Below, piece by piece: positions 16,442 to 46,391 of a DNA stretch of 64,000 bases. The notes under the pieces were generated by a model that ran no database searches, was not told the DNA's origin, and worked only from the letters and a program-made list of their open reading frames with translations. This stretch comes from Rhodobacteraceae bacterium QY30 (GTDB lineage Bacteria > Pseudomonadota > Alphaproteobacteria > Rhodobacterales > Rhodobacteraceae). Where the stretch lies: NCBI GenBank assembly GCA_002356635.1, contig CP023454.1:2092501-2156500 (forward strand), written 5' to 3'. How positions within the stretch are numbered: the stretch's first letter is position 1; every line of letters begins with the position of its first letter. A program made the position numbers and the translations under genes.

Positions 16442-16470
16442 GTCTTGTCCTTTTCTTCAGAGAAGTATGT

Positions 16471-16497
16471 GCGGCCACCGTCTGGCACGGCGACCGC
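16471..16497 (-). promoter_or_regulatory. Intercistronic hairpin after etfA
   Basis: On the minus strand GCGGTCGCCGT pairs with ACGGTGGCCGC (11 bp, two G-U pairs) around GCCAG, 11 bases past the etfA stop. It is one of several hairpins that punctuate this operon. Confidence 0.45.
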
Positions 16498-16507
16498 GAG
16501 GTTGTTT

Positions 16508-17461: not shown

Positions 17462-17464
17462 CGA

Positions 17465-18250: not shown

Positions 18251-18271
18251 TCATCCTCTCCAAGTTTTGTG

Positions 18272-19675
18272 TCAGGGTTTCAATGCAGGTTGGTTCCCGT
18301 GCCGGGCCAGTCGGCGCGCGGCAGAGAACCTCACTTGCGGTTCAGGGTCGTCCAGAAGGTCCGCAACAGCGGCATCGTCCAGTCGGGCATGACCGACGAT
18401 CATCGCGCGGTTAAGGGGGTAGGGATCCGCAGCAAGAAGGACCAGCGCCTCCCGCGGGGCTGCGGGATTGAAGACGATGGCGCGGCGGACGTCGGCATCA
18501 TCGTGGCGGGCGATCGCGACCAACCTCTGGGCGGGCGTATTGCGGTTGCGACCAAGCGCACCAAGCACGTCCCGGTCGCTCGTGTTCAAAAGGATGCTGA
18601 TGGCTTCGGCCGGAGCATCCTCGCGAAGCGCCACCCCCGCCTGGACCCAAGGCGCCGGGTCCGCGGCAAGCCGAACAAGAAGATGGGCGGGGCAGGACGA
18701 ATTTCGTGCGACACCGCGCCGAACCTCGGCCTCTTCCGAAGACGCGAGTTCCGCCAGAAGTTCTGCCGACATGTCGGGGTGACGCGCGATCCAGCGCCGG
18801 ACCCAGCTGTCGGGGTCGCGGGCAAGACGTTCGATCACATCCGCCGACAGCTTCGGACGGCGGGCGACAAGGCGGCGAACGCGGGCCGAAGCCTCGTTCA
18901 TGGCATCGACCTCTTCGCCCAGGATCGCCGGGTTGCGTACCGCCGCCGCCCGCACGCTGTCGTCGGGGTCGGTCAGCAGTCGCTCCAGTGCGGATTGGTC
19001 GATCATTGGGTTGGCGGCAAGTTTGCGGCGCAGCCGCACGTCTGGCGCGCTTGTGGCAATTGCCAGAAGGGTCGCGGGGCAGTTCGGATGGGCAACGATA
19101 TCGGCCTTCACCCAATCGTCGCCCAGATCCCACAGTTTCGCCAAGGTTGCGGCATCGGCGGCCGGAGAGGCTGCGATTGCGCGCTGGATCAAGGCGTCGT
19201 CGATGCCTGCCAGCCTCGCGACCACATCCCCAGGCGTGGCAGGGTTCCCGGCGACGGCTTGCTGAACTTCAATCGCATCATCCCGTGACAGGTCGACCAG
19301 AATGGCGGCATCGGCATTCGGGTGCGATGCTAGATAGCGCCGCGCGCGCGGATCGCTGCATTGCGCCATCAGCCGACGCAATGCGCTTGCCGGGGTCGAC
19401 GTGTTCTTGGCCAGGCGCAGCGCAAGGCCGTCATCCGCACCCAGCGAAAGGGCGTCCAGCAGATTTCTGGGGGCATAGGGCGCCGCGGCGACGATCAGCC
19501 GTTGCCGCCGCGTCCCAAGGATCACCGTCTCAAGTTCGGACCGGACCGCCGGCTCGACATGAGAGTAAATGCCAAGCGCAGCATAGAGGTCTCCGACCGC
19601 CAAGACCCGGGCGGTCAGCGCAACACCGTTGCACATGCCGTCAAGGGACCGATTGTCGGAGACCGCCGTCATCAT
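18272..19675 (-). CDS. LRV/HEAT-like repeat protein of the trimethylamine operon
   Basis: About 467 aa made almost wholly of 24-25-residue helical repeats of the type LLALATSPD..VR..VA.NP..P (for example ARRYLASHPNADAAILVDLSRD and VRRGVARNSSCPAHLLVRLAAD), the pattern of leucine-rich-repeat variant (LRV) proteins. No catalytic motif is visible. It sits between the membrane Fe-S oxidoreductase and etfB, so a scaffold or maturation role for the Fe-S/flavin electron chain is plausible but unproved. The frame remains open upstream to 19828; the true start is one of two consecutive ATGs at 19675 or 19672, overlapping the preceding TGA. Confidence 0.72.
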   Translation of the reverse strand: MMTAVSDNRSLDGMCNGVALTARVLAVGDLYAALGIYSHVEPAVRSELETVILGTRRQRLIVAAAPYAPRNLLDALSLGADDGLALRLAKNTSTPASALRRLMAQCSDPRARRYLASHPNADAAILVDLSRDDAIEVQQAVAGNPATPGDVVARLAGIDDALIQRAIAASPAADAATLAKLWDLGDDWVKADIVAHPNCPATLLAIATSAPDVRLRRKLAANPMIDQSALERLLTDPDDSVRAAAVRNPAILGEEVDAMNEASARVRRLVARRPKLSADVIERLARDPDSWVRRWIARHPDMSAELLAELASSEEAEVRRGVARNSSCPAHLLVRLAADPAPWVQAGVALREDAPAEAISILLNTSDRDVLGALGRNRNTPAQRLVAIARHDDADVRRAIVFNPAAPREALVLLAADPYPLNRAMIVGHARLDDAAVADLLDDPEPQVRFSAARRLARHGNQPALKP

Positions 19676-21828
19676 GCCGGCACCGCAGCCGTCTCGGATG
19701 CTTCGTCCTCGTCCTTCGGCTTGGCGTCCAGGCCCATGGCCTCGGCCAGCAGTTCCGTGAGTTCGAGCACCCGGAAGTTGCCTTCGTTGCCCGTGCCTTT
19801 CACGCCGTCTTCCAGCATGTTCAGGCATTTCGGGCAGTTCACCACCAGAACGTCGAGGCCCGGGATCTCAGCCGCTTCAGCAGCGCGGAGTTCGGCGGGT
19901 TTCTTCAGTTCGGGCGGATCGGGCAGCCAGATCCGACCGCCACCGGCGCCGCAGCAGAACGAATTGTCGCGGCTGCGGCCAAGTTCCACCAGATCGACGC
20001 CCATGCTCTGCAGCACCTGACGCGGCGCTTCGGTGCAGTCGTTGATGCGGCCCAGGTGGCAGGGATCGTGGAACGTCACGCGGTAGTCCAGGTTCGCCGG
20101 TTGCGGAATTTTTCCTTCGCGGATCAGGCGCTCGAGCATGGAGCTGGCGTGCTCGATCTCATAGTTGCCGCCGAACTCGGGATATTCGTTCCGGATCGTG
20201 TTGAAGGTATGCGGATCCGTGGTGACGATCGTCTTGAACTGGCAGCTGTTCAGCAGCTCGATATTGGCCTCGGCCAGCGACTGGAACAGGCCCTCTTCGC
20301 CGATGCGGCGGACGTCGTTGCCGGCGGTCTGCTCATCTTCATACAGGATGCCGAAATTGATCCCGGCGGCCTTCAGAATCCGGGCGAAGGTGATCGTGAC
20401 CTTCTGCGACCGCGGGTCGAACGAGGCGTAGTCGCCCACATACCACAGGACATCGACGGGTTCCGTGCGGGCATCCGTGATCTCGAAGTCCAGCTTTTGC
20501 GTCCAGCGCGGGCGCTTGCGCTTGTTTTCACCTAGGGAGTTGCCGGATTTCTGCAGGCTTTTCAACGTCGGCTGAAGGATGGTGTCGAAGTTGCCATCTT
20601 CGATCAGCGCGCGACGCATTTGCACGATCATCGGCAGATGTTCGATGCCAACAGGGCAGATTTCGACGCAGGCGGCGCAGGTGCGGCACGACCAGAGCGT
20701 TTCGGGACGGATCATGTTGACTTCCGTGCCAATGACCTCGATCGGTCCCTCGGGCATGGACGCATGCGAGAGCTTGTCATTCGCCAGTTCGCGCAGACTC
20801 AGGACCAGATCTCGCGGCGACAGCGGATAGCCCGACGCGTTGGCCGGGCAAGCCTCGTGGCACCGACCGCATTTGGTGCAGGCGTCGACGTTCACGAGAT
20901 ACTTGTCCGAAAAGTCAGTCAGCAGGCTGAAACCGATCTTCTCGGCCTCGACGTCGGCCATGGGCATCCGGCGCTTGGCTTCCGGATCGCGGGCCATCAG
21001 CGAACCCATCGCGGTGAAGATATGCTTGACCTTCGTGTAGGGAACGAGGGCGATGAAGGTCAGCGCGAGGATGCCGTGGGTCCACCAGAGGACCATACGG
21101 AAATTGGCCGCACCTTCGGGAGTCATCCCGAAGCCTTTCATCAGTTGGGCCAGAGAAGCCCCAACTGGCGACCACCAGCGGTAATTCCAGACCGCGGGGT
21201 CATTTTGCAGCCAGACCAGGCGCACGGATTCCACCAGGTAGCCAGTCATGCCGATCAGGATCAGCGCCCAGAGGAAGGCCCAGTCTTCCCGCCGATAGTC
21301 CGAACGGTCGTAGTCCGGGTCCTCGGGCGAACGGTCCGGGCGGTGGTAGTTCAGGCGCGGCGGTTTAAGCCAGCCGCGGCGATACATCATGTAGAGCAGG
21401 CCACCGAGGAGCGAGAGTCCCGCAAGATCCATGGCGAGCGAGAAGAAAAGATAGAACGCACCGTGCCAGAAGTGCAGGCCCGTAATAGGACCGGTAATGT
21501 CATGGTCCAGGGTGATGATGCTGGTGCCGATGAAAAGAACGGTGAAGCCATAAAAGATGAACATATGGGCTGCACCAGCACCGCGCGCGCGGCGCTTGAT
21601 CGTCTTGTGATCCAGAACCCGGGCGAACATCGTCCGGAAACGCGGCCAGAATGGCGACCACGCGCCCGCGCGCATCCCACGCCGATATTTGCGTATCTGC
21701 GCCCATACCCCGTACAGGAAAACTCCGATTGCTCCGATGGCGACCACGTAGAAGGTCGTCAGCATCCAGAGTGGGAAGTTATCGAACAAGACACGTGTTA
21801 TGTCTTGTGGATCATGATCGGGGATCAT
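19672..21828 (-). CDS. Membrane Fe-S oxidoreductase, DgcB/EtfD-like (probable ETF:quinone route)
   Basis: 718 aa. The N-terminal third has five hydrophobic helices resembling nitrate-reductase gamma (LTTFYVVAIGAIGVFLYGVW through ALTFIALVPYTKVKHIF). Then come two 4Fe-4S ferredoxin sites (CTKCGRCHEACPANA; CRTCAACVEICPVG) and a C-terminal heterodisulfide-reductase-like part with CCG-type motifs (DPCHLGRINDC...SFCCGAGGGR and NCPKC). This architecture matches DgcB of dimethylglycine catabolism and EtfD-type proteins, thought to pass electrons from ETF to the membrane quinone. Located between TMADH and etfBA, it completes an electron route from trimethylamine to the respiratory chain. Confidence 0.85.
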   Translation of the reverse strand: MIPDHDPQDITRVLFDNFPLWMLTTFYVVAIGAIGVFLYGVWAQIRKYRRGMRAGAWSPFWPRFRTMFARVLDHKTIKRRARGAGAAHMFIFYGFTVLFIGTSIITLDHDITGPITGLHFWHGAFYLFFSLAMDLAGLSLLGGLLYMMYRRGWLKPPRLNYHRPDRSPEDPDYDRSDYRREDWAFLWALILIGMTGYLVESVRLVWLQNDPAVWNYRWWSPVGASLAQLMKGFGMTPEGAANFRMVLWWTHGILALTFIALVPYTKVKHIFTAMGSLMARDPEAKRRMPMADVEAEKIGFSLLTDFSDKYLVNVDACTKCGRCHEACPANASGYPLSPRDLVLSLRELANDKLSHASMPEGPIEVIGTEVNMIRPETLWSCRTCAACVEICPVGIEHLPMIVQMRRALIEDGNFDTILQPTLKSLQKSGNSLGENKRKRPRWTQKLDFEITDARTEPVDVLWYVGDYASFDPRSQKVTITFARILKAAGINFGILYEDEQTAGNDVRRIGEEGLFQSLAEANIELLNSCQFKTIVTTDPHTFNTIRNEYPEFGGNYEIEHASSMLERLIREGKIPQPANLDYRVTFHDPCHLGRINDCTEAPRQVLQSMGVDLVELGRSRDNSFCCGAGGGRIWLPDPPELKKPAELRAAEAAEIPGLDVLVVNCPKCLNMLEDGVKGTGNEGNFRVLELTELLAEAMGLDAKPKDEDEASETAAVPA

Positions 21829-21889
21829 CGCTCTATGGTCCTCTTGTCCTGTTCTAAGCGTTGCCGCCGTCGCGCAACGTCACGAATTG

Positions 21890-21922
21890 GGTGTCCGCGG
21901 GGCGCAATGCCCCGCGGACACC
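21890..21922 (-). promoter_or_regulatory. Perfect 14-bp hairpin between TMADH and the Fe-S oxidoreductase gene
   Basis: GGTGTCCGCGGGGC-GCAAT-GCCCCGCGGACACC is a perfect 14-bp stem 11 bases after the TMADH stop codon. No T-run follows on the minus strand. It probably stabilises the abundant dehydrogenase message or reduces expression of the downstream genes. Confidence 0.65.
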
Positions 21923-21932
21923 ACTCGGTCGC

Positions 21933-24179
<2,247 letters not shown>

Positions 24180-27677: not shown

Positions 27678-30515
<2,838 letters not shown>

Positions 30516-30804
30516 GCTGACGGGCGACCCGCAATTTCTGGCACGGGCGGCCCCCAGGGACCGTCCGGGCCGGAAAGCACCGCGGGCCGTTACAGACCGA
30601 CGTCCTGCCGCAGTCCGCCAACTCCGCAGATCGAAGGAAGCCCGGATCGATCACCCGATCAACTTGGTGACTTCTATCCGGCTGCCCGTCTGGGTCTTCG
30701 ATCCGCAACACCCTTGGTGTCCTGCTGCGGGTCATCGTCGACAGAAAGAATACCGGCGCGCGAACTCTCGCGCAGTTCGTCTCGATCCTTGAAAGGACAG
30801 TTAA
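30516..30804. other. 289-base spacer between DMADH-like and GcvT-like genes
   Basis: No gene recognised. It ends in GAAAGGACAG, a good SD for the GcvT-like start at 30805. The spacer is long for a simple operon, so a separate promoter here is possible. Confidence 0.4.
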
Positions 30805-31902
30805 ATGACAAAACGCACATCCGCACTTGAAGACATCCACCGTTCGCTTGGCGCCGGACTTGGCGAATGGAACGACATGGATGTTCCCTGGAGCTACGCC
30901 TCGTCGGCCGACAGGGAACTCGACTCGGTCCGTGAAGCAGCCGGGCTGTTCGACCTGACCGGGCTCAAGAAGATCTGGGTCAAGGGACCTGACGCCGCCG
31001 CCGTGATCGACAAGGTCTCGCCGCGCGACATGAGCAAGGTCGGAAAGGGCAAGGCCGCCTATTGCCCGATCCTGACAGATGAAGGCACGATCTGCGACGA
31101 CGTCATTATCTACCGCATCGAGGACGACAAGTACCTGTTCGTCTACGGCACCGGCACGGGCCACGAACGCCTTGCGCTGGCGGCAAAAGGAAAGAACGTC
31201 ACGCTGGAAAAGGACGACGACCTGCACAGCCTGTCGCTGCAGGGTCCCAAAGCGGTGAAGATCCTCGATGCCAACAGCCCCGCGGACCTTGCATCCCTGG
31301 ATTTCTTCGGTCTGGTCCAGACCGAGCTGTTCGGCCGCGAGGCGATCGTATCCCGCACCGGCTATTCGGGCGAACGCGGCTATGAAATCTTTGTGGACCG
31401 GAAAGACGCTGTCGACGTCTGGAATGGCATCCTTAAGGCGGGTGAAAAGGAAGGCGTGCTGCCGTGTTCGTTCACCTGCCTCAACAAGGGCCGGATGGAA
31501 GCCGGACTTCTTTTCTATCCCTTCGACATGAACGAAGCCCATACCCCTTGGGAAATGGGCCTGGGCTGGGCCGTGTCCAAGAAAAAACCCGACTATCTGG
31601 GGAGGGAAGCGGTGCTGAAAAGCGAAGGCAAGGAAAAGATCCGGCTTGCCGGTGTTTCCTGTCCCTCCAGCGCCGGTGTCATCGCCGGAGGAACCGACCT
31701 TTTCCTGAACGGGCAGAAGGTCGGCGTGGTCAGCAGTTCCGAATACTCGCACCGTCTGGGCAGATCTCTGGGGCTAGCCCATCTCCAGCCTGGCATTGCC
31801 GAAGGCGCAAAGCTGAAATTGGGCGATGACGCTGCTGCACAGGAAGTTACCGTTGAGGAACTTCCGTTCTACGACAAGGAAAAGAAGCGCATGCGCATGT
31901 GA
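30805..31902 (+). CDS. GcvT-family (aminomethyltransferase-like) protein 2
   Basis: 365 aa, exactly the length of the paralogue at 15344 and alignable throughout: GLFDLTGLKKIWVKGPDA, DEGTICDDVIIYRI, SRTGYSGERGYEIFVDRKDA and WEMGLGWAVSKKKPDYLGREA. Both retain the CDD acidic motif and the C-terminal barrel of T-protein-type folate enzymes. It lies 289 bases after the DMADH-like gene. The repetition of a dehydrogenase plus a GcvT-like gene in both loci suggests that each enzyme has a dedicated tetrahydrofolate C1 acceptor (inference). Either could also be a methyltransferase acting on another methylated amine. Confidence 0.85.
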   Translation: MTKRTSALEDIHRSLGAGLGEWNDMDVPWSYASSADRELDSVREAAGLFDLTGLKKIWVKGPDAAAVIDKVSPRDMSKVGKGKAAYCPILTDEGTICDDVIIYRIEDDKYLFVYGTGTGHERLALAAKGKNVTLEKDDDLHSLSLQGPKAVKILDANSPADLASLDFFGLVQTELFGREAIVSRTGYSGERGYEIFVDRKDAVDVWNGILKAGEKEGVLPCSFTCLNKGRMEAGLLFYPFDMNEAHTPWEMGLGWAVSKKKPDYLGREAVLKSEGKEKIRLAGVSCPSSAGVIAGGTDLFLNGQKVGVVSSSEYSHRLGRSLGLAHLQPGIAEGAKLKLGDDAAAQEVTVEELPFYDKEKKRMRM

Positions 31903-34649: not shown

Positions 34650-36278
34650 CTATTCGGCCACCACGCCCTCACCTATATCGTAATCGCTGGAGGCGCGAGC
34701 TTCGGCGCGGGCAGCTACGAGGAACTGGGCGCTGTCCGAGGCGCAAGCCAGACAGATCGGCGCGTGATTGGACGAGGGATCTCGGTCCATCTCATGCGCA
34801 ATATAAGCCTGGTTGCAGTGGTGACAGCGAATGCGCGCCGACCAAGGATCATCAACCTCCTTGCGAGGGTCGTTGGGACGCTCTTTGACGAACCAGCTGC
34901 GGCGCGCGACCATTAGCGCCGCGACATAAATCGCCACGGCGATCACAAGTGTTGCTGGAGGTGCCCAAATCGCGCCGAAGCTGCCGCCAAAGATCATCAT
35001 CAGACAGCCGACAGCTGAGGCGATGATCCAGGCCCCAAGGCCGCCCGGATTGATCATCGGCACACGGCCGGGACGGAATTCCAGTGAGTCTGGCTTAATG
35101 CCGCGTATGTAACACCAGCCGATGTGAGTAAGCGCGACGCCGACCCAAGCAACGATGATAACTCCCTGGAATTGCAGCGTCAGAAGAAGGTAGCTAAAAA
35201 CATTGGTCAGCATGACGAGGAAAATAACCACTGTCATGATGATCACCCAAACCGTGCGCGGCCACGAGATTTTGAAGGCTCGAGCGAAGAAATTTTGCAT
35301 ATTGGTGGATGATAGATAGAAGTTAATCGTGTTGATCCGGGTTTGGCTGGCCCACACGAGAAGCACGCCGAATGGTCCCATCAACGCTACGATACCGATG
35401 ATCGCCGATGTTTCCGACAGTTGCCCTTCAATAGGGATTGTGAAGGTGATGAACATGCCCACAGCGCCGTTAATCAGCAGAGTTACAATATAGAAGGGAA
35501 TGCCAAAAGTGATGTTACCGTTAAAGGCGGAATCCTCCTTGCGGCCGAAGCGGGCGACGTCCCAAGTCATCATCACAACCACCCAAACGCCCATGTAAAC
35601 TGTAAAGGCGAACCACCAGCCTGGGACGCCCAGAGCGACGGCACTCGTAGGGAGCTGGGTTAGCCATGCGCCGGAATAGCCGTGATCGGCGATGGCCCAG
35701 ACGACGCAGGCCAGAAGGCCGAATACATAAAGCGGCAAAAGGATGCCGTTGATCCGGTCCAGCCATGTCCGTACACCGCGCATCACCAGAGGTGCACTGT
35801 AAAGGCAAACGATGAAATACCACACGCTTATCGGGCCGCCGAAATAGTCCTGAAGTGCAATGGCGACGATCGACCCTTCGGCGATGGCGTAATAGGTAAT
35901 CGTGACGCCGAACAGGAGGGCGGCGAAGGTCGCGCCAACCTGCCCGAAGACCGCGCGTGAGAATAGCGCCACACTGGTGCCGCTGCGGGCGGCGAAGCGC
36001 GCGGCAATGTTGCACATAATACCATAGACGACTGAGGATAATGCGATGCCGATTAGCGTGTTGATGGTGCCAACCGTCAAGGCGACGGTGCTGCCTACAA
36101 CGACCCAGAACATCGCGCTCATGAGGCCGAACCAAGCCATCGAAAGCGAAAAGCGGGTACTGCGCCATGTCGGCGGAACAATATGAAGAGAAAAATCCTC
36201 GGCCGCAGCTTGGCGGAGGACTTCGGGTTCGTCGTGATAAATGATCTCTGGGCGAGGTATCGTCCGGGATGCAGTCAT
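34650..36278 (-). CDS. NCS1-family permease with C-terminal zinc-ribbon-like tail
   Basis: 542 aa from the ATG at 36278 (MTASRTIPRPE; GGAG at two positions just upstream), preferred to the open extension up to 36407. The core has about 12 helices with NCS1 (nucleobase/hydantoin/allantoin) character: WRSTRFSLSMAWFGLMSAMFW, ARFAARSGTSVALFSRAVFGQVG and GVRTWLDRINGILLP. After the last helix comes an unusual soluble tail, CHHC(16)...CLAC, i.e. two CxxC pairs separated by about 20 residues, as in a zinc ribbon. Lying downstream of hyuAB, it probably imports a hydantoin, cyclic amide or nucleobase derivative. Confidence 0.82.
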   Translation of the reverse strand: MTASRTIPRPEIIYHDEPEVLRQAAAEDFSLHIVPPTWRSTRFSLSMAWFGLMSAMFWVVVGSTVALTVGTINTLIGIALSSVVYGIMCNIAARFAARSGTSVALFSRAVFGQVGATFAALLFGVTITYYAIAEGSIVAIALQDYFGGPISVWYFIVCLYSAPLVMRGVRTWLDRINGILLPLYVFGLLACVVWAIADHGYSGAWLTQLPTSAVALGVPGWWFAFTVYMGVWVVVMMTWDVARFGRKEDSAFNGNITFGIPFYIVTLLINGAVGMFITFTIPIEGQLSETSAIIGIVALMGPFGVLLVWASQTRINTINFYLSSTNMQNFFARAFKISWPRTVWVIIMTVVIFLVMLTNVFSYLLLTLQFQGVIIVAWVGVALTHIGWCYIRGIKPDSLEFRPGRVPMINPGGLGAWIIASAVGCLMMIFGGSFGAIWAPPATLVIAVAIYVAALMVARRSWFVKERPNDPRKEVDDPWSARIRCHHCNQAYIAHEMDRDPSSNHAPICLACASDSAQFLVAARAEARASSDYDIGEGVVAE

Positions 36279-36499
36279 GACTCCAACTCCTGTTGTTTGA
36301 ATTTCTGCCGAAGTCGGAAAACCGGGCGTTACAGTCGGACTGAAGGCCGCCTGTTCAGCGCGGGCCTTCGTGACGCTGTCACTCGTGAACTGTCCTGAAC
36401 GCTTCAAGCTTACTTGTCACACCGAAGGCCGGGACCGACGAGACTTTAAAGCTGGCGACGTGCAGAAACAGGGGCCGGCGTCCGTTTGGATTTTTTGGA

Positions 36500-36562: not shown

Positions 36563-38650
36563 TTAGGCGGCGGCCCGGAGCCTTTCTGTTGCTTCTTGGC
36601 TCAGAACGTTAAGGGTCTTACCCCAGTAAGGGACAACCCGGCGTTTCATCATCTCGCGGAAAGTATGTGTCGTATTTGACAGGAGGTTCCCGTTGCCCCA
36701 GTCAAGAATGACGCCATATTGACGGACGCAATCCATGACGTTGTACGTGCCCGCACGGTAGCCCGCCGCGATGGTTTCCGGGTCCACGTCCAGCCAGCCC
36801 ATACGGGCATCGGCGATACGCTTACGCTCCGCCAAAGTCGCGGCCTCGTCCACTTCGTAATGCGCGAGGTCTTTGTCCACCACCTGGATAACGACGCCGT
36901 AGTCGATCCGTGCACGTTCCACGCTGACATACTCGTCGGCAACGTCCTCACAAACCAATTGCGGATCGCGCATCAAAGGGTCTCCGACCCCGCCCCCACC
37001 GGCCGACGGGCGCGTGAATACGTCGTCCAACTCGATCGGGAGGTTCGAGAAGATCGAGCCGAGGTAACGCTCCCTCTCGGTGCCCTTGTTAAGCCATACG
37101 CCATGCGGGATCGAGGGCAGTCCGCCCCACATGCCCCATGTAACGGACCGCTCGCGGTCACAGCAGTAGGAGACTACGATCCGTTCGCCCTCGAAGACGG
37201 AACCGCCCTTTTCGGCGCCAAGACCGCCGCGGGCCTCGCCGGGACCCGCAGAGTCCTGCACAAAGTCGTGGCACTTGGTGAGGACTGGCGCGAGCCGCTC
37301 CTGTCCTTCAAGGGGCTGGATCCCGTACTGGGCGCCGAACACGGGAGCAGTGGCGTTGAAGCCGTCGCGTCCGTTGCGCCCCCCCCAGCCGCCAGCCATC
37401 CAATCATACCACATGAAGTAGGGGCGGCCCTGAAGTCGTGTGTCGCGCCCCCCGACCAAAAGGTATTCCAGGTTGAAGGCGCAACCCATCGTCCTTTCGG
37501 GCAGAATGTCCGCCCAAAGACCGAAAACAGAGTTCATCAACTTCTCGAAGGGGCCAGAGCAAAAGCCCGCGCAAGGGCTTGGCCATTCGGCGTTTACGAC
37601 AGTCCCCGGCTCGCCCACGTTCACCGTAACTGCCCGGTACAGGCCCGAGTTCAACGGAAGATCGGGGAACTGATATTTGGTTCCCGCAACGATTCCGGCG
37701 AAAGAACCCCCATAGGCAGCATTCAGGAAAGTAGAGATTTGGGGATGCGATCCGGACAGATCGTAGTGGGCGTGATTGCCGTCGATAGTGAACTTGATTT
37801 TGATCGGAATTAGGCCCTCTTCGAGCTTTGGATCCTGATCGATGTAGTCCTCGGCATACCAGGTACCGTTTGGCAATTCGGCCAGGCGATTGCGCATCAG
37901 AACTTCGACCCAGTCCTGCACTTCGCGGAACGCCGTCTTGATGGTCTCAACGCCGTATTTGTCGCAAAGGCGCTGGATCTCGCGCTCGGCAACGGCCGTG
38001 GCCTCGGCCTGAGCCTGCATGTCGCCGATTACATCGCCCGGATTGCGGGTATTCGATGCGATCATCCGCGCCACATCACCCAGCCAAACCCCTTTGCTCC
38101 AGACACGCGTAGGCGTGATGCGGAGGCCCTCGCCCATATGATCCAACGCTGTGATATTGAACGAGCCGGGCGTGGCTCCGCCCATGTCCGCCCAGTGACC
38201 GTTGGCCTGCGACCAGCCGATCAACTCACCTTTATAGAACATAGGCCGCAGGATGCGGGTGTCGTTGAAGTGGCTGCCGCCGCGGAACGGATCGTTGATG
38301 ATAAAGACGTCGCCGGGATGGATATCGCCTTCGAACTCTTCAATGACCGCTTTGCAGGTGTAGTGCAGCGTGCCCACGTGCGCCGCAATGTCGCCGGTGC
38401 CCTGCATCACCAGGTTGCCCTGCGGATCGCTGAGTCCGGATGAGAAGTCGCGGCAGTAGATTACGAAGGAGTAGCAGGTCCGCAGCAGTTGCTCCGCCAT
38501 CTGGTCGACGATGTTAACGAAGGCATTGCGCAGCACCTCGAAAGTAATCGGGTCAAGCTCGGACTTGAACACCGTCATGCGTTCGGACGGGGGCGGCGGG
38601 AATTGAATGCCTTTGTCGGACAGTCCGATGATTTGTTTCTTGCCGGTCAT
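36563..38650 (-). CDS. hyuB: Hydantoinase/oxoprolinase subunit B (HyuB family)
   Basis: About 695 aa, partner of HyuA in ATP-dependent ring-opening of N-methylhydantoin, 5-oxoproline or similar cyclic amides; the family also includes acetone carboxylases and caprolactamases. Conserved blocks: FKSELDPITFEVLRNAFVNIVDQMAEQLLRT, YCRDFSSGLSDPQGNLVMQGTGDIAAHVGTL and HPGDVFIINDPFRGGSHFNDT. Start: ATG at 38659 directly abuts AAGGAGG, so the second ATG at 38650, 9 bases after that SD, is preferred. The C-terminal 80 residues (VVIQVVDKDLAHYEVDEAATLAERKR onward) are an extra tail. Same operon as hyuA. Confidence 0.88.
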   Translation of the reverse strand: MTGKKQIIGLSDKGIQFPPPPSERMTVFKSELDPITFEVLRNAFVNIVDQMAEQLLRTCYSFVIYCRDFSSGLSDPQGNLVMQGTGDIAAHVGTLHYTCKAVIEEFEGDIHPGDVFIINDPFRGGSHFNDTRILRPMFYKGELIGWSQANGHWADMGGATPGSFNITALDHMGEGLRITPTRVWSKGVWLGDVARMIASNTRNPGDVIGDMQAQAEATAVAEREIQRLCDKYGVETIKTAFREVQDWVEVLMRNRLAELPNGTWYAEDYIDQDPKLEEGLIPIKIKFTIDGNHAHYDLSGSHPQISTFLNAAYGGSFAGIVAGTKYQFPDLPLNSGLYRAVTVNVGEPGTVVNAEWPSPCAGFCSGPFEKLMNSVFGLWADILPERTMGCAFNLEYLLVGGRDTRLQGRPYFMWYDWMAGGWGGRNGRDGFNATAPVFGAQYGIQPLEGQERLAPVLTKCHDFVQDSAGPGEARGGLGAEKGGSVFEGERIVVSYCCDRERSVTWGMWGGLPSIPHGVWLNKGTERERYLGSIFSNLPIELDDVFTRPSAGGGGVGDPLMRDPQLVCEDVADEYVSVERARIDYGVVIQVVDKDLAHYEVDEAATLAERKRIADARMGWLDVDPETIAAGYRAGTYNVMDCVRQYGVILDWGNGNLLSNTTHTFREMMKRRVVPYWGKTLNVLSQEATERLRAAA

Positions 38651-38684
38651 GCCGGTCATCCTCCTTGTTGATGGTTAAACGTGC

Positions 38685-40757
38685 TTACGCCGCGCCAAGC
38701 CGGATCTGGATGTTCAGCCACTCGTCGATGTAGGCCACGTCGCCGGGCGGAATGACGGTGGTGGAGTCGAGCTGGTCGATAACGGCGGGACCGTTAATCG
38801 TGACGCCAGGCGGCAGTGTTTCGCGATCGTAGAGGTTGGTGGTCACGGCCTTCGAATGTCCGTGGAACCACGCCTCGCGGGTCCCCTTCGGAACGGCTTT
38901 GGCGTTCTTGTCGATGGTGATCTTCGGGAAGGACGGCTTTGGAGTCACGCCGATGGCCCGCACAGTTAACCGATAGATTTCCACAGGGAAATCCTCGCGG
39001 CGGAAATTGTGGGCCTTTTCATATTCGTTGTGGAAGATGCTCAGCGCCTCATCCATTGACTTGATCTGCCCCGGCACTGGCACGGCGAGTGAACGCCACT
39101 GACCGCGATAGCGCATGTCTACGAACCGCTGGAAGGTCATGTCCTTGTCGGCCACTCCGTCACGTTGCAGCCGGTCCCGTCCCTCGGTCTCCAGTTTCTT
39201 GAACGCAGCTTCAACATCGGCCGGCTTGGCCGAGGCCGCGTCCTCGAAGAACATCTGGGTCACATCATGCTGTACGTCGACCAACATGCAGCCCACCGCC
39301 GACGTCACCCCTGGATTTGGAGGAACGATTACGACCGGAATGTTCAACTCGCGAGCGATGTCGACACCGTGCAACGGACCTGCCCCTCCGAAGGCCACCA
39401 GTGCAAAGTCGCGCGGGTCATGACCACGAGCGATCGAGATCAACCGCACCGCATCGGCCATGTTGGCATTGGCGACGCGCAAGGTTGCAAGCGATGCTTC
39501 GATTATGCCGAGGTTTAGCGGTTTGGCGATCTTTTCCATCGCGACCAGGGCGGCATCGCGATCCAGCGATTTCTTACCACCAGCAAGTGTGGTCCCGACC
39601 CGGCCAAGGATGATGTTTGCATCAGTATTGGTCGGCTCCGTGCCCCCCGCCTTGTAGCAGGCCGGCCCCGGCAATGAACCTGCTGATTGCGGTCCATTGC
39701 GAAGTGATCCTGCCTTGTCCAGCCAAGAAATCGAGCCGCCGCCCGCGCCAATAGTCAGGACTTCGATCGATGGGAAACAGATCGGATGGCCCCAGTCCAC
39801 CTCCCATTTGTCGGTCGTCCGCAGGTGGCCGTTCTCGGCAAGAGAGATATCCGCCGAAGTACCGCCCATATCTAGGCCAATGGAGTTCTTGAAGCCGCAA
39901 AGCTCGGCAAAGTATTTGCTGGCGATGGCACCTGCCGCGATTCCGGAAGCGGCCAACCGAGCCGCGTATTTTTCGGCCGTCGCTGGTGTCATGACCCCGC
40001 CACCGGAATGGAGCAGCAGAACGTCGGGCTCGTATCCCGCCTCCGTCGTCCTGCGGTCAATATCGCGGGCATAGGGACGGATGATTGGCGCGAGGATGGT
40101 ATTCGCCACTGTGGTAGAGAAGCGATCATCCTCGAAGATCTCAGGATGGGTTTCGTGCGAGGTCGAAATGGCGATATCCGGTCCAAGGACCTCAGCGAGA
40201 ATTTCCGCCATTCTCTGTTCGTGGACACCGTTGACATATGCGTTGATGAAGCAAACAGCGACGGCATGCACATTGCGCTTCTTCAGAATGCGCGCAATTT
40301 CGCGCGCCCGCGCCTCGTCCAGTGGCTCGATAATTTCGCCGCGATAATTGATGCGTTCACGGACGGTAAAACGGTCCCGCCGACGTACATAAGGCGGCGT
40401 ACCTTCCTTATAAGCGTCCCAAGGATCTTCACGGGTACCGCGCCCGATTTCGAGAACGTCGCGGAAGCCCTCGGTGGTCACCATCGCAACGGGCTTGAAA
40501 TTACGGGTGATCAGCGCGTTGGTCGCGACGGTAGTGCCATGTGTGAAAAGGTCGACATCATGCCAGTCGATATCGGCAGCCGCGGCACCGTTCATGATGG
40601 CGTCGATCGGATTGGCCGTACTGGGAACCTTAGCAACGGTCTGGATTCCGTTTGAGTCTAGAACGAATACGTCGGTAAACGTTCCGCCAACGTCAATTGC
40701 CAATCGAGTTCGCGCCCGCGTCGGGGCCGAGCCTGCGCTCGCTCCGTCCATGCTCAT
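38685..40757 (-). CDS. hyuA: Hydantoinase/oxoprolinase subunit A (HyuA family)
   Basis: 690 aa from the ATG at 40757 (AAAGGGATTACAA upstream). ASKHA-type ATP-binding motifs are visible: RLAIDVGGTFTDVFVLD at the N-terminus, GLDMGGTSADISL in the middle and VAFGGAGPLHG further on. These are the HyuA/OplA hallmarks. The enzyme phosphorylates its cyclic amide substrate at ATP cost while HyuB completes hydrolysis. With AmiC/AmiR-like sensors upstream and an NCS1 permease downstream, a hydantoin or lactam is the likely substrate. N-methylhydantoin would connect to the methylamine theme (inference). Acetone carboxylase is less likely because no third subunit gene is seen. Confidence 0.88.
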   Translation of the reverse strand: MSMDGASAGSAPTRARTRLAIDVGGTFTDVFVLDSNGIQTVAKVPSTANPIDAIMNGAAAADIDWHDVDLFTHGTTVATNALITRNFKPVAMVTTEGFRDVLEIGRGTREDPWDAYKEGTPPYVRRRDRFTVRERINYRGEIIEPLDEARAREIARILKKRNVHAVAVCFINAYVNGVHEQRMAEILAEVLGPDIAISTSHETHPEIFEDDRFSTTVANTILAPIIRPYARDIDRRTTEAGYEPDVLLLHSGGGVMTPATAEKYAARLAASGIAAGAIASKYFAELCGFKNSIGLDMGGTSADISLAENGHLRTTDKWEVDWGHPICFPSIEVLTIGAGGGSISWLDKAGSLRNGPQSAGSLPGPACYKAGGTEPTNTDANIILGRVGTTLAGGKKSLDRDAALVAMEKIAKPLNLGIIEASLATLRVANANMADAVRLISIARGHDPRDFALVAFGGAGPLHGVDIARELNIPVVIVPPNPGVTSAVGCMLVDVQHDVTQMFFEDAASAKPADVEAAFKKLETEGRDRLQRDGVADKDMTFQRFVDMRYRGQWRSLAVPVPGQIKSMDEALSIFHNEYEKAHNFRREDFPVEIYRLTVRAIGVTPKPSFPKITIDKNAKAVPKGTREAWFHGHSKAVTTNLYDRETLPPGVTINGPAVIDQLDSTTVIPPGDVAYIDEWLNIQIRLGAA

Positions 40758-40799
40758 TTGTAATCCCTTTCGAGCTGCGCCTGGCAAAGCGATGCACAA

Positions 40800-40911
40800 T
40801 GGGCGAATTGGCCCAGTGATCGATTGCGTAAGCATTTCATTTTAAGAGGGGGAGGTAGCATCACCTGATGCATGCAGCATCCAGCGAGGCTTTGCATTCT
40901 TTGTTGAATGC
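40800..40911 (-). promoter_or_regulatory. Leader of hyuA with a series of small hairpins
   Basis: Reading the minus strand towards hyuA: GCATTC-AACAAA-GAATGC (40894-40911), GATGC-TGCAT-GCATC (40867-40881), an overlapping, mutually exclusive GCATC-AGGT-GATGC (40858-40871), and TGGGC-CAATTC-GCCCA (40800-40815). Two have six-base loops. Tandem hexaloop stem-loops are the known targets of ANTAR proteins such as AmiR, encoded upstream, but the consensus loop bases A1/G4 are not both present. The rest of 40758-41124 shows no gene. Confidence 0.4.
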
Positions 40912-41124
40912 GCATCACAACATTACGCGAGGGCCATCCAAAATGGCAAACCTTTTTTTGAACCGCTGCAGCAGCGAAACTGTGCCAAAAAGTAGATTAA
41001 AAACATCGGGATGACGGAGAGAGTATTATGCCGCATCGCAGAGTTTTCAGTGCTGCGGTCCAACCTTATGGATGGCATAATCCCATTTTGCTCCGCTCCC
41101 TAGGCGCCTGCTCCGACCACCGAA

Positions 41125-41480
41125 TCACACCAACTGCAGCAGGAACGGTTTGGTCTCCACGTTGGGTGTGAGTCGTGCGGTGGCGGCCGTTTGGTTCGGC
41201 TCACATTTTCGCTGAGCCGAATGCGACGGCGCGAGAAAGTTGGTGGGTGCTTCTCGGCCGATGGGGTTTTCAGATACTTTCAAGCATCGGCGTGGTCTCG
41301 GCCACATGCCGGTGTCAGGTGGGGCAATCGAGGGGTATTCTCCGGCCCATTTCTCGTCGAAGGCATCCAGCTGGCGGGCGGCCTCCTCAGCGATCGTGGC
41401 CTCGTAGACCGGGCGCACGTCGGCGGCCAGGGCGCGCGGTCCCTCCAGCTGCAGAAGTACATCGAATACCGGACCAGGTG
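41125..41480 (-). pseudogene. IS256-family transposase relic
   Basis: The frame contains ALAADVRPVYEATIAEEAARQLDAFDEKWAGEYPSIA, which corresponds to the IS256-type block (D.R.IY.A.T...A...L..F..KW...YP). The downstream part expected for the family (the IESLN region) is missing, replaced by unrelated sequence. Confidence 0.65.
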
Positions 41481-41499
41481 GATCAGCCATACATAAAAA

Positions 41500-41736
41500 A
41501 CCAGGAACTTTCGCGGATCTATGTCTGGATATGTGCCCCTCCGCCGCGCGGCTCGCGTTCGACCAGTGCCATCCCGTCATATCCGCGATCCGCAAACATA
41601 AGCCCGGCAGGCGGCGCACCCTCATCGACCACCGCGAGGATCTTGGTGCACGGTCATCCACTAGGGCCGAACAACGGCGCGATCCTTTCGGCCCGTGGCA
41701 GTTTTGATGGGAGCGGACGGTGGAACCGTCGATCAA
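41500..41736 (-). pseudogene. IS5-family transposase relic
   Basis: The frame starts MIDGSTVRSHQNCHGPKGS, matching the IS5-type DDE block (MIDGS.VRAH....GAKGG). It then gives diverged pieces (AEGHISRHR) of the later region. Several frame changes are evident and no full gene can be assembled. Together with the IS256 relic it separates the amiR-like gene from hyuA. Confidence 0.65.
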
Positions 41737-41863
41737 CTGAAATAGGATCGGTTACAACTGCCACTTCTCGTCGCTCGAGCGGACCGCGCCATCGCTACAG
41801 TCTGCCATCAGTGAAAATGAACCCGCCACGGCGCAGTCCTCAAGGCCGTATTGACACCCCCTC

Positions 41864-42514
41864 CTAGTCTCCCCTCGGCACCGCCTCGTCTTCGTGCCAC
41901 TTCAGACCCGACAGAAGATCGTTGGAGACGGCATCCACCGTGGTGCGCCGCCTCATTGCCAGTTGGCGCAGCAACCGGTAAGCTTCCTTCTCCGAGTGGT
42001 TGTCGATCAACATGATCGCTAACTTGGCCCGTTCGACGATCCGGCTGGCCTCAAGCTTGGCCTGCAACCGTTCTAAATTTAGCCGCAATCTTTGTTCTCG
42101 GCGGTAATTATTTACCGCCGCCAGCAGGTTGGTCAAGATTCCGAAAGGGCGGATCGGGAGGCCGATCACTGCGTTGACTCGCATGTTCAACAGCCGGTCG
42201 ATGGACAACGGGTTTTCGTAGTCGATTACCGCGATCAGCACGGCCGACGGGTTCTCGGCCTCCCAATGAAAGGCCAGTTTACTTTCAATAACCCTGTCGA
42301 CCATCACGAAAATTATGTCAATATCCGCGTGGTAAGTCTGCGGTGGTGGCCAAGACTCCTGCACCTCGCAGCCGATCCGCTCCAAATGGGAGCGGAGCGC
42401 CACTCCCTCGCCACCCTCGGGCTGAACAAGAAGGAACTTCAGAGTCCGCAGATCCTTGATCAGGAACGGATGCTCCTTCTTGCTGGCGAAAGGTTCGCTT
42501 CGTCCTAGCCGCAT
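41864..42514 (-). CDS. AmiR-like antitermination regulator (ANTAR domain)
   Basis: 216 aa. A pseudo-receiver N-terminal domain (LKFLLVQPEGGEGVALRSHLERIGCEVQESWP) lacks an evident phosphorylation Asp set. A coiled coil (NYRREQRLRLNLERLQAKLEASRIVERAKLAIMLIDNHSEKEAYRLLRQLAM) leads into a C-terminal ANTAR RNA-binding three-helix domain. The family member AmiR binds leader RNA hairpins and prevents termination, and is held inactive by AmiC until an amide binds. The AmiC-like gene lies directly upstream on the same strand. The target is probably the hyuA leader 1.1 kb downstream (inference). Confidence 0.82.
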   Translation of the reverse strand: MRLGRSEPFASKKEHPFLIKDLRTLKFLLVQPEGGEGVALRSHLERIGCEVQESWPPPQTYHADIDIIFVMVDRVIESKLAFHWEAENPSAVLIAVIDYENPLSIDRLLNMRVNAVIGLPIRPFGILTNLLAAVNNYRREQRLRLNLERLQAKLEASRIVERAKLAIMLIDNHSEKEAYRLLRQLAMRRRTTVDAVSNDLLSGLKWHEDEAVPRGD

Positions 42515-42612
42515 TTCAGATTCCTCGGCCGAAGAATGACCACTGAATATGATCTAGTTCGATCAATGACCGCACGATGATGCCTGCCAGATAAGCCACA
42601 GAGCAAATCGCT

Positions 42613-43761
42613 TTACAAAGAAGTATCGGGTGGAAACTCTTCTTCAGGGACGAGCGAGTAGGTAGTCCGATAGGGGTCCGGCAAGACGGACTGGCTCGTT
42701 TTCGCGACGATCTCGAATTGCCCATCGCTGCGCGCGATTCCGATTTTTGGCCAGACATGGCAATGGGAATTCAGTTCGTCAATTTTGATCAGTCCCTGCG
42801 GCGCATCGAAGGACGCCCCGAGCATTCCCGCCCGGACTGCACCGATACTATCGGAACTCTTGCGCATTGCCTGAGCAACTACGTGCGCCTGCGTGTATGC
42901 CGCATCCCAACACATATTTGCGCGCGGATCCTCTCCCTTGACCGCCCTATAACGAGCAAGGCAAGCCAAATTTGCCGAATTTGTTTGCGACGCAAAATAA
43001 GTTGCGGCAGTAATATGCCCGACAGTGGCCGATGCACCGATTTCCTGTATGTCTGCTTCACTGGTTGTCAAGCTTGCGACCAGCATCCGATTTGAATCTA
43101 AGCCATTTTCAATATATGCTCTATAGAACTTCAGGTTTAATAGGCCGACGAAATTATTAAAGATGATGTCCGGGCTATACCGTTTGATTTCCTTTATCAA
43201 TGCGTCGAAATCTCTGTCGCTCGCACTCTCCCCCAGGTAGCATTCTCCTAAAATCTCTCCGCCACCGGACCGAATAAGATCGCCCATGATTCTTCCGGAC
43301 TCTCGTGGCCAGACATAGTCCGATCCAACGACATATAGCCGAGGAGAGTAATTTTGCAGAAGATAAACCGCCAGGAACAGGCTGTTCTGGTTTGGCACCG
43401 CGCCGAAATACATGGCGTTGTCTGAGTATTCGAAGCCCTCGTACTGTGCGGGATAGCAAAAAAGTCCAGTTTCCCGATCTAGAACACTCAGAACTGCCTT
43501 GCGCTGGCTGGAGGTATAACCGCCGAGAATGATTTTGACCTGGTTCTCCGTCAGAAGGCTTGCGGTCATCGTTTGATATGCCGCAGGTTCTCCCCTCGGG
43601 TCGCGATAAAAGGGGATCAACTCCCGCCCATTGATTCCCCCCGCCGCATTAATTTCCGCTATGGCGAACTCGGTCGCCGCCAGCATGCTTCGCTCCGTTA
43701 CGGCAGTTCGACCTGTCGTGGAAAACAGGACGCCGATATGAATAGGTTGGTCGCTTCTCAT
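42613..43761 (-). CDS. AmiC-like cytoplasmic amide/urea sensor (Peripla_BP_6 fold)
   Basis: 382 aa with no signal peptide (starts MRSDQPIHIGVLFSTTGRTAVTERSMLAATEFAIAEINAAGG). This is the Peripla_BP_6 fold of AmiC, the negative regulator that senses short amides in Pseudomonas. Further blocks: GGYTSSQRKAVLSVLDRETGLFCYPAQYEGFEYSDNAMYFG and NNFVGLLNLKFYRAYIE, both close to AmiC/UrtA proteins. It is followed 98 bases later by the AmiR-like gene, recreating the amiC-amiR order. AmiC releases AmiR upon ligand binding; here the ligand may be a hydantoin, urea or amide. Base composition is lower in GC than neighbours, suggesting transfer. Confidence 0.82.
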   Translation of the reverse strand: MRSDQPIHIGVLFSTTGRTAVTERSMLAATEFAIAEINAAGGINGRELIPFYRDPRGEPAAYQTMTASLLTENQVKIILGGYTSSQRKAVLSVLDRETGLFCYPAQYEGFEYSDNAMYFGAVPNQNSLFLAVYLLQNYSPRLYVVGSDYVWPRESGRIMGDLIRSGGGEILGECYLGESASDRDFDALIKEIKRYSPDIIFNNFVGLLNLKFYRAYIENGLDSNRMLVASLTTSEADIQEIGASATVGHITAATYFASQTNSANLACLARYRAVKGEDPRANMCWDAAYTQAHVVAQAMRKSSDSIGAVRAGMLGASFDAPQGLIKIDELNSHCHVWPKIGIARSDGQFEIVAKTSQSVLPDPYRTTYSLVPEEEFPPDTSL

Positions 43762-44120
43762 AATTGCGCAACTCTTCCTAGGGACCGGGCGGCCGGGCTA
43801 GACCGGCAACCATCCCAGAATCCGGGTGCTTTCTACAAGCTTGCACCAACAGTAGGCGGGCCGCACGGTCGGGTCAACGTGCACCGCCGACATGGACATT
43901 CCTCGTGTCACCTACGGCTTGAGACTCGTCGCCGGGCTACCCGGTTCTGGAGTTTCCGGGCTTTATCGAAGCAGGGACGGGTTCTCTGCCGGGATCTGCC
44001 GCCGCCTGCGTTTTAGTTAATCGCGCCGAAAGGTTTGTCCTCGTAGCAGTATCTGAGCCAAGCTTCCATCCAGGGCACTGCGATCGCCAGGAACCCGCTG
44101 AAGTTCAGGCTGCGCAGTAG
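43762..44120. other. Intergenic debris upstream of the AmiC-like gene
   Basis: No complete gene. On the minus strand about 44013-44115 an open frame ends FLAIAVPWMEAWLRYCYEDKPFGAIN and stop, which looks like the C-terminal remnant of a real but unidentified protein. The promoter of the AmiC-like gene should lie at 43762-43850. Confidence 0.35.
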
Positions 44121-44303
44121 AACCGGGTACGCCGGGGCGCTCTAAAGCCATGGCAGGGCAACCGCTACCGTTCGCTCTCCGCCGTGGCCCGCGCCATCAC
44201 CGGCGCGCAATGGTCGGGCCCGCGGTTCTTCGGGCTGAAGGCCGCGCCGGCCAGCCGCCCGGGCACGACGCCGCGACAGCGGCGCGCGGGAGGCGCGCCA
44301 TGA
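44121..44303 (+). pseudogene. C-terminal remnant of a DUF2924 protein
   Basis: In the frame ending TGA at 44301-44303 the text reads WQGNRYRSLSAVARAITGAQWSGPRFFGL. This is the C-terminal signature of DUF2924 proteins, which are regularly encoded immediately before large serine recombinases of this type. The 5' part has been lost (in-frame TAG at 44118). Its stop overlaps the recombinase start (ATGA), so the original translational coupling is preserved. Confidence 0.75.
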
Positions 44304-46003
44304 GAACCGCCAAGACGCGCCCCGCCGGGCTGCGCTGTGCGATCTATACCCGCAAGTCGACCGAGGACGGGCTCGAGCAGGAGTTCAGCTCGCTCGATGC
44401 CCAGTACGAGGCCTGCGCCGCCTATGTCGCGAGCCAGAAACACGAGGGCTGGAAGCTGGTGGCGACGCGCTTCGACGATGGCGGCCTCTCCGGCGGCACG
44501 CTCGAGCGCCCGGCGCTGCAGCGGCTTCTGGCCGAAATCGACGCCGGACGCATCGCCATGGTGGTGGTCTACAAGATCGACCGCCTGACCCGGTCGCTGG
44601 CCGACTTCGCCCGGCTCGTCGAGCGGCTCGACGCAGCCGGCGCTTCCTTCGTCTCGGTGACGCAGGCCTTCAACACCTCGACCTCGATGGGACGCCTGAC
44701 GCTGAACATGCTGCTCAGCTTCGCGCAGTTCGAGCGCGAGGTCACCGCCGAGCGGATCCGCGACAAGGTCGCCGCCTCGAAGCAGAAGGGGTTGTGGATG
44801 GGCGGCATCCTGCCGCTCGGCTACGATGCCCATCCCGATCCGAACCGTCGCGAACTGGTCGTCAACGAGGCCGAGGCCAGAACCGTCGCCGAGATCTTCG
44901 CGCTTTACGATCAGCACGGCTGCCTGCGCCAGGTCGAGCTGGCGGCGCGGGCGCGCGGCCTCGCCTCGAAGCGGCACCGCTTCCGGACCGGCAACAGCCG
45001 CGGCGGCGGGCCGCTGTCGCGCGGCCAGATCCATTACCTGCTGACCAACCCGGTCTATCTCGGCCGCATCCGCCACAAGGACATCGATCATCCCGGCCTG
45101 CATCCGGCGATCATTCCGCCTGATCTCTGGGAGCGGGTCCAGGCCGGCCTGCTCGAAGCCCGGGCCCGGCCGCGCGGCCGCAGGGGCCTCGCCGCGGCAC
45201 CCACATCGTCGGGCAACCGGGACAGTGCCGCGGCCCTGCTCGGCCGGATCCGCGACGAGACCGGCGATCTGCTCACCCCGAGCCACACCCGCCGTCATGG
45301 CCGGCGCTACCGCTATTATGTCTCGAACCGCCTGCTCGCCGGCGGACCCGACCCCGCCGGCTGGCGGCTGCCGGCCGAGGAGCTGGAGCGAAGCCTCGCC
45401 ACGCTCATCATCGATCATCTCGACGTTGTGGCCCGCGAGCACCGGATCCTCGCCACCCCCGAGGCCGGCAGCGCCGAACGCCTCGCCGCCAGGCTGGCGG
45501 CGCTGGCCGGTCGGTGCCGCGCGGGGCAGCCTTCCCTCGCGCTCGGGTTCCTTGCCGCTGCAACCCTGGAGCGCGGCAAGGTGCATCTCGCTCTCGACGC
45601 TGGCCGCCTCGCGGCGGAGCTCGCTGTCAAACCCGAAGCCCTGGCTGCGGAGCTCCTGCACTGCAGCGCCGACTTCTGCCGGCGGCGGCGCGGCATCGAG
45701 ACCCGCATCGTCACCGGATCCCGCGCGGTCCTGCCCGATCCGACGCTGATCCGCATGCTCGCCACCGCCCGGCGCTGGTCGCTGGCCCTCAGAGCCGGAG
45801 ACAGCCTCGCGGCGATCGCCGCCCGCGAAGGCCATTCCGAATCCTACCTGCGCACCCGGCTGGCGCTCGCCTTCCTGGCGCCGAAGCTCCAGGCCGCGAT
45901 CCTCGCCGGCACCCAGCCGATCGATCTGAGCCTCGAACGCATGGTCCGCCAGGGCGTGCCGCTCGACTGGGTCGAGCAACAACGCCTCTACGGCGGCGCC
46001 TGA
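44300..46003 (+). CDS. Large serine recombinase
   Basis: 567 aa. The N-terminal resolvase domain (RCAIYTRKSTEDGLEQEFSSLDAQ, with the catalytic Ser in YTRKST) includes VVVYKIDRLTRSLADFARL and the block SFAQFEREVTAERIRDK. It is followed by the Recombinase domain (GYDAHPDPNRRELVVNEAEARTVAEIF) and a long C-terminal region with helical DNA-binding character, no obvious zinc ribbon, ending in a HTH-like segment (LAAIAAREGHSESYLRTRLALAFLAPKLQAAIL). Likely integrase/excisionase of a genomic island. It lies 300 bases from a tRNA-Ser gene at the edge of the accessory region. The upstream frame extension to 44150 is the overlapping DUF2924 relic. Confidence 0.9.
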   Translation: MRTAKTRPAGLRCAIYTRKSTEDGLEQEFSSLDAQYEACAAYVASQKHEGWKLVATRFDDGGLSGGTLERPALQRLLAEIDAGRIAMVVVYKIDRLTRSLADFARLVERLDAAGASFVSVTQAFNTSTSMGRLTLNMLLSFAQFEREVTAERIRDKVAASKQKGLWMGGILPLGYDAHPDPNRRELVVNEAEARTVAEIFALYDQHGCLRQVELAARARGLASKRHRFRTGNSRGGGPLSRGQIHYLLTNPVYLGRIRHKDIDHPGLHPAIIPPDLWERVQAGLLEARARPRGRRGLAAAPTSSGNRDSAAALLGRIRDETGDLLTPSHTRRHGRRYRYYVSNRLLAGGPDPAGWRLPAEELERSLATLIIDHLDVVAREHRILATPEAGSAERLAARLAALAGRCRAGQPSLALGFLAAATLERGKVHLALDAGRLAAELAVKPEALAAELLHCSADFCRRRRGIETRIVTGSRAVLPDPTLIRMLATARRWSLALRAGDSLAAIAAREGHSESYLRTRLALAFLAPKLQAAILAGTQPIDLSLERMVRQGVPLDWVEQQRLYGGA

Positions 46004-46301
46004 CCCTCTCTCCAGAACTTGCTCGTCGTGTCCGAGGGCGCGCGACCAGTGGTCGCCGATGCCCTCTCCTCCCGAAAAAATCGGGGGGCTGCAAAACTGG
46101 CGAAAGTCCCTGTTAATTCCCTGTTTCCGGGTGCTGTCAAAAACCGAACCGGCTTCGATGGCGCCCTGAGACGCCTGCCGCTGTCCGCCGCGATTCGAGC
46201 ATTGCCCGCGTGTCTCAGCTGGCATAGCCTTCAGGCAAGCTGCCGAAATGACGCGACAATCTGCAGGGATTTCCTTCAGAGACCGTAGAGACTGGGGTGG
46301 C
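46004..46301. other. Spacer between recombinase and tRNA-Ser
   Basis: About 300 bases with no recognised gene. An attachment site for the neighbouring recombinase might lie here, but no direct repeat of it was identified in the window. Confidence 0.3.
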
Positions 46302-46391
46302 TGGCGGACAGTGAGGGATTCGAACCCTCGAGACGGTCTCCCGCCTACACACTTTCCAGGCGTGCGCCTTCGACCACTCGGCCAACTGTCC
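46302..46391 (-). tRNA. tRNA-Ser, anticodon GGA
   Basis: On the minus strand GGACAGTTGGCCGAGTGG begins a class II tRNA of 90 bases including an encoded CCA. The acceptor arms GGACAGT/ACTGTCC pair, the D-arm has GCCGAGTGGTCGAAGGC, the anticodon loop reads CTGGAAA (anticodon GGA), there is a long variable arm (GGCGGGAGACCGTC), and the T-arm has GGTTCGAATCC. This defines tRNA-Ser(GGA). It marks the transition from accessory DNA to chromosome-like genes. Confidence 0.95.

Follow-up and report, generated by a model that had tools for sequence, protein, structure and literature searches.

The window, a stretch of 64,000 nucleotides from Rhodobacteraceae bacterium QY30 (contig CP023454.1, positions 2,092,501 to 2,156,500), carries on its minus strand a run of five genes identified by Pfam and NCBIfam domains. 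It begins with an AmiC-type cytosolic ligand sensor of 382 aa (42613-43761, Peripla_BP_5) and a 216-aa AmiR-type protein with AmiR_N and ANTAR domains (41864-42514), and continues with HyuA, the A subunit of an ATP-dependent hydantoinase/oxoprolinase (38685-40757, with both DxGGT motifs), the HyuB subunit (36563-38659, with Asp-His-Asp-His metal ligands) and an NCS1-family permease (34650-36278), which lies outside the coordinates covered by the first-pass annotation. The hyuA and permease reading frames were called as 38685-40835 and 34650-36407, respectively; the true start of hyuA is probably 40757, and 36278 is the probable start of the permease. The first-pass annotation had placed a signal-peptide-less AmiC and an ANTAR protein upstream of hyuA-hyuB-permease on one strand, and the domain searches confirm each of these genes. 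The gap of about 1.1 kb between amiR and hyuA contains IS256 debris, including a transposase remnant (41288-41482), which suggests that hyuA is probably transcribed from a start of its own. A promoter scan revealed no promoter excess.

Upstream of amiC, at 44150-46391, a large serine recombinase adjoins a tRNA-Ser gene. An island at this position was considered and discarded: no direct repeat of the tRNA end was found, and the recombinase next to amiR in P. versutus is only 26% alike. Two paralogous sets, each comprising an OYE-type flavin dehydrogenase and a GCV_T-like aminomethyltransferase, occupy 15344-24131 and 28293-31902, one of them together with ETF, Fe-S and LRV/HEAT-repeat proteins, and look like systems for methylated-amine oxidation. 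The earlier proposal that the locus is tied to methylamine, urea or creatinine metabolism is not supported, since such genes are not constant neighbours at the orthologous loci examined, whose flanks differ.

A scan of the genome collection with AmiC recovered orthologues in Pseudogemmobacter, Paracoccus, Cypionkella and Labrys. Close orthologues of the system occur in 12 further genomes; four loci besides the window keep the order amiC-amiR-hyuA-hyuB-permease and the others are rearranged. A genus-mate matches the window in all five genes and their order, an additional IS lying between amiR and hyuA. In P. versutus hyuAB lies ahead of amiCR, in Labrys a permease-hyuB-hyuA run is convergent with amiCR, the arrangement is also convergent on a plasmid record of P. 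aminovorans, and on P. aminophilus pAMI4 amiCR is located 121 kb from hyuAB-permease. Across 125 genomes of the Paracoccus genus group, orthologues of AmiR (at least 70% identity) and of HyuA (at least 89% identity) are found in the identical five genomes, and the seven genomes of the group having only HyuA homologues of 53-57% carry neither an AmiR orthologue nor the leader motif described below. Because it is kept in other genomes, the linkage of amiCR with hyuAB-permease is more than chance; the association of AmiC/AmiR with HyuAB and a permease, as first annotated, is thus borne out, whether the order is preserved or rearranged.

The closest solved structure to the sensor is AmiC 1pea (E 4.9e-68). 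The protein begins MRSDQPIHIGVLF, no signal peptide being detected, and combines the features of an AmiC sensor, namely a Peripla_BP_5 fold, a cytosolic form and a position adjoining amiR. Numbered as in P. aeruginosa AmiC, the pocket residues Ala106, Gln107 and Trp152 are present in the AmiC of every HyuAB-linked locus, including a distant one, whereas the P. aeruginosa protein has Thr106, Pro107 and Tyr152, and AmiCs linked to amidase or urea genes have Thr/Gln106, Leu107 and Tyr/Phe152. Positions 83, 85, 104, 150 and 233, which we take to be the amide contacts, are unchanged, save for Thr233 in the Klebsiella protein. Since the changes at 106, 107 and 152 go in step with HyuAB linkage, they point to a different amide ligand that would be shared across this branch. 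Ahead of amiC, the alignment reveals a candidate promoter-like site, TTGACC-17-TACTGT (43849-43877, minus strand), whose TTGACC is conserved in ten orthologues; the leader of amiC itself holds no hexaloop common to the orthologues.

With respect to AmiR, the AmiR_N and ANTAR domains score 103.7 and 46.1 bits against Pfam cut-offs of 27 and 27.3, and the best solved structure is AmiR 1qo0 (E 2.8e-23). No other ANTAR gene is present in the 3.55-Mb genome. In a tree with several long branches elsewhere, all AmiRs linked to HyuAB, among them the distant one, group in a single clade with support 99/98.

The hyuA leader follows a promoter-like site, TTGCCA-18-TAATGT (40920-40949, minus strand), so named by resemblance only and lying in a block conserved in the alignment. 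Its 3' end is 8 nt ahead of hairpin 1, GCAUUC-AACAAA-GAAUGC (40894-40911, minus strand), which has a 6-bp stem and a six-base loop and is a candidate AmiR site. The position of this hairpin is constant: all 12 clade leaders read have it 148-161 nt ahead of the start codon, and folding predicts it at a probability of at least 0.86 in every leader. Its loops read AACAAA, AACAAC or AACAGA, and AGAAUC in one genome (G442), only A1 and A4 being invariant. At the third stem pair, seven sequences have A-U, three have G-C and a single one has G-U; the covariation score was reached by 12 of 500 shuffles, and just one pair of the hairpin is altered on both sides. The leader matches no curated RNA family in Rfam. 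Searched with a degenerate pattern of the hairpin, nine system-bearing genomes each gave exactly one match, upstream of hyuA every time, and there was no match in reversed controls or in a genome devoid of an AmiR orthologue; in the window's genome the motif occurs nowhere else. Matches in G434, G543, G524 and G438:C4, which have no adjacent hyuA and three of which fall inside long open frames, were taken as chance. By chance alone, hexaloop hairpins are not uncommon; the argument is therefore based on conservation and co-occurrence and not on a hairpin being present.

In this regard, ANTAR proteins need positions 1 and 4 of a hexaloop (PMC3369931). As these positions are invariant in hairpin 1, and as the hairpin tracks AmiR and stays at hyuA on pAMI4, where the genes are apart, the most likely conclusion is that this RNA is the target of AmiR. 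Against such a reading stand the limited covariation of hairpin 1 given above and the A4 of the loop, where EutV requires G4 (PMC3369931, PMC8934654); moreover, co-occurrence in most genomes is also explained by genes travelling as a cluster. ANTAR residues that contact RNA in EutV (PMC8934654) are largely preserved, K149, Y164, R168, M172 and R175 being retained in the clade, but every member of the A4 clade has Ser or Cys at the position of EutV Arg142, a residue that helps to hold G4. A tie between this substitution and the A4 loop is only suggestive, because other AmiRs vary at this position as well.

The inverted repeat also lends itself to a reading at the level of DNA. GCATTC-N6-GAATGC forms a perfect palindrome in the majority of copies, directly downstream of the -10 element, as would befit the operator of an unlinked transcription factor, with amiCR a mere passenger. 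Yet the symmetry is broken in P. aminovorans (GCGTTC...GAATGC), where the RNA pair is retained as G-U, and in Labrys (ACGTTC...GAACGC); positions 1 and 4 of the loop are invariant although the loop is asymmetric; and in the genomes checked the motif follows the AmiR orthologue, no other common regulator gene being seen. We therefore consider a DNA operator improbable. Even less probable is that the hairpin merely stabilises the hyuAB mRNA and that AmiCR has its target elsewhere. Hairpins at the 5' terminus do protect mRNAs, but stabilisation does not need invariant bases at loop positions 1 and 4, and the motif of a genome whose only ANTAR gene is amiR is found nowhere but at hyuA.

Beyond hairpin 1, the leader comprises hairpin 2 (40861-40887, minus strand), with a 5-nt loop and a covarying stem whose pairs are changed on both sides, a C-rich, G-poor tract immediately 3' of it (40844-40860, minus strand) that is a possible Rho site, and a hairpin 3 region (40784-40827, minus strand) upstream of the hyuA ribosome-binding site. 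Occlusion of this site is not favoured, as it is mostly accessible in the predicted folds, except in Labrys. In the hyuA leaders of the window clade no second hexaloop with A1 and A or G4 recurs beyond hairpin 1, and the 12 leaders have a single A1/A4 hexaloop in place of a dual hexaloop in which each loop carries A1 and G4. A terminator scan found no intrinsic terminator on the minus strand of the window's hyuA leader, and no U tract follows hairpins 2 and 3 in the orthologous leaders.

An A1/G4 loop and a terminator-like site are found only in a distant version of the module (locus L120, genome G579), from the taxonomic order to which Labrys belongs. Its genes are arranged as in the window, with identities of 54% (amiC), 44% (amiR), 57% (hyuA), 68% (hyuB) and 42% (permease). 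Directly after its -10 element, in a place matching hairpin 1, lies CGUCGC-AAAGAU-GCGAUG (9171-9154), followed by UUUUUG; its loop is of the canonical ANTAR A1/G4 type and may close one extra A-U pair. A further leader hairpin, GCGGACGAAGCCGUUCGC (about 9094-9068), is followed by CUUUU. Intrinsic termination may therefore exist in the distant module, though not in the window clade.

These leaders bear on the first-pass annotation, which set the antitermination of amidase by AmiC/AmiR in Pseudomonas beside a possible control of HyuAB. In classical antitermination, AmiR would stabilise the 5' hairpin and a hidden second one, preventing a terminator from forming in the leader; P. aeruginosa AmiR is described as acting in this way (PMC3369931), and the A1/G4 loop and the hairpin with U tract of the distant leader are in line with it. 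The window clade, lacking a recurring second hexaloop, U tracts at hairpins 2 and 3 and a leader terminator, does not support it, and we regard this mode as unlikely here. What is supported of the original proposal is the control of HyuAB, most likely exerted at the hyuA leader on account of the conserved hairpin, the co-occurrence and the single AmiR clade; antitermination in the Pseudomonas manner is not.

Taken together, the data make it probable that AmiC/AmiR is a dedicated, one-target amide-sensing switch acting on the hyuA leader hairpin, despite the A4 of the loop and the lack of a second hexaloop and an intrinsic terminator. In the cytosol, AmiC would bind a small ligand of amide type, most probably the cyclic amide on which HyuAB acts or a compound closely related to it. 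By analogy with Pseudomonas AmiC/AmiR, from which the direction of control, induction on ligand binding, is taken over, AmiC would hold AmiR when the ligand is absent and free it when the ligand is present. Freed AmiR would then raise expression of hyuA, hyuB and the permease gene by binding the hexaloop hairpin located at the very 5' terminus of their common mRNA. Since the loop is A1/A4 and single, the output is probably not dual-hexaloop antitermination at an intrinsic terminator; it may instead be relief from Rho-dependent termination, protection of the mRNA or some other effect in the leader, and Rho-dependent attenuation is a fair guess in view of the C-rich, G-poor tract.

As for the enzyme, the two DxGGT ATP motifs in subunit A and the Asp-His-Asp-His metal site in subunit B assign it to the HyuAB/oxoprolinase family (PMC8453981). 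Caprolactam is an unlikely substrate because HyuB is devoid of the vicinal cysteines and Tyr136 of the CapB pocket (PMC8453981) and because the NCBIfam equivalog scores for caprolactamase, 490 and 316 bits, are below the cut-offs of 1000; lactams, hydantoins and imides are all possible. A literature search on lactam hydrolases returned nothing on this HyuAB branch. Reading the substrate from neighbouring genes was tried and abandoned, as the HyuAB homologues of 55-61% that lie with GABA-type genes (Halomonas) or molybdenum hydroxylase genes (Rhizobium) include no orthologue. A 61% HyuB homologue on a Halomonas plasmid (L060) is accompanied by cytosine permease and succinate-semialdehyde dehydrogenase/aminotransferase genes and possibly represents a 2-pyrrolidinone-opening branch. 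The NCS1 permease ends in a zinc-ribbon-like tail, CHHC...CLAC (CxxC...CxxC; 34650-34870, minus strand), which is kept in the clade and absent from the distant module and, to our knowledge, is unusual for an NCS1 permease.

More tentatively, and as a possibility to which we give somewhat less than even weight, this ANTAR clade may have switched its RNA specificity from G4 to A4 at the one base-specific contact (Ser/Cys matching EutV Arg142), with a single 5'-terminal hexaloop devoid of an intrinsic terminator and a changed AmiC pocket, in controlling the ATP-dependent opening of cyclic amides. The locus would add ATP-dependent ring-opening enzymes to the amidases as targets of AmiC/AmiR control; no paper tying ANTAR or AmiCR to HyuAB was found in the literature searched. 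The A4 clade and its G4 distant sister offer a natural pair for probing base-specific recognition of RNA by ANTAR proteins and also bear on whether one hexaloop suffices, and the AmiC pocket signature provides a route to the ligand and hence to the substrate of this HyuAB branch.

Compared with P. aeruginosa AmiC/AmiR (1pea, 1qo0), the system shares the cytosolic sensor with its ANTAR partner and the residues at AmiC positions 83, 85, 104, 150 and 233, but it goes with HyuAB and a permease where the Pseudomonas pair goes with an amidase operon, has the pocket changes T106A, P107Q and Y152W and a single A1/A4 hexaloop with no intrinsic terminator seen, and its AmiRs form a clade of their own. 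The AmiCR pairs next to urtABCDE or amidase genes in Roseibium, Caballeronia and Klebsiella plasmids are homologous, but are linked to amide/urea transport and amidases and have the T/Q106, L107, Y/F152 pocket. With the dual-hexaloop RNAs targeted by EutV, NasR and AmiR, hairpin 1 has in common a six-base loop with invariant positions 1 and 4, a short stem and a location in the leader, and differs in its A4, in being the only hexaloop and in sitting at the transcript start. Finally, HyuAB departs from CapAB (6yra) in the CapB cysteines, Tyr136 and the caprolactamase scores, while sharing with CapAB and N-methylhydantoinase (7hk5) the ATP motifs and the Asp-His-Asp-His metal site.
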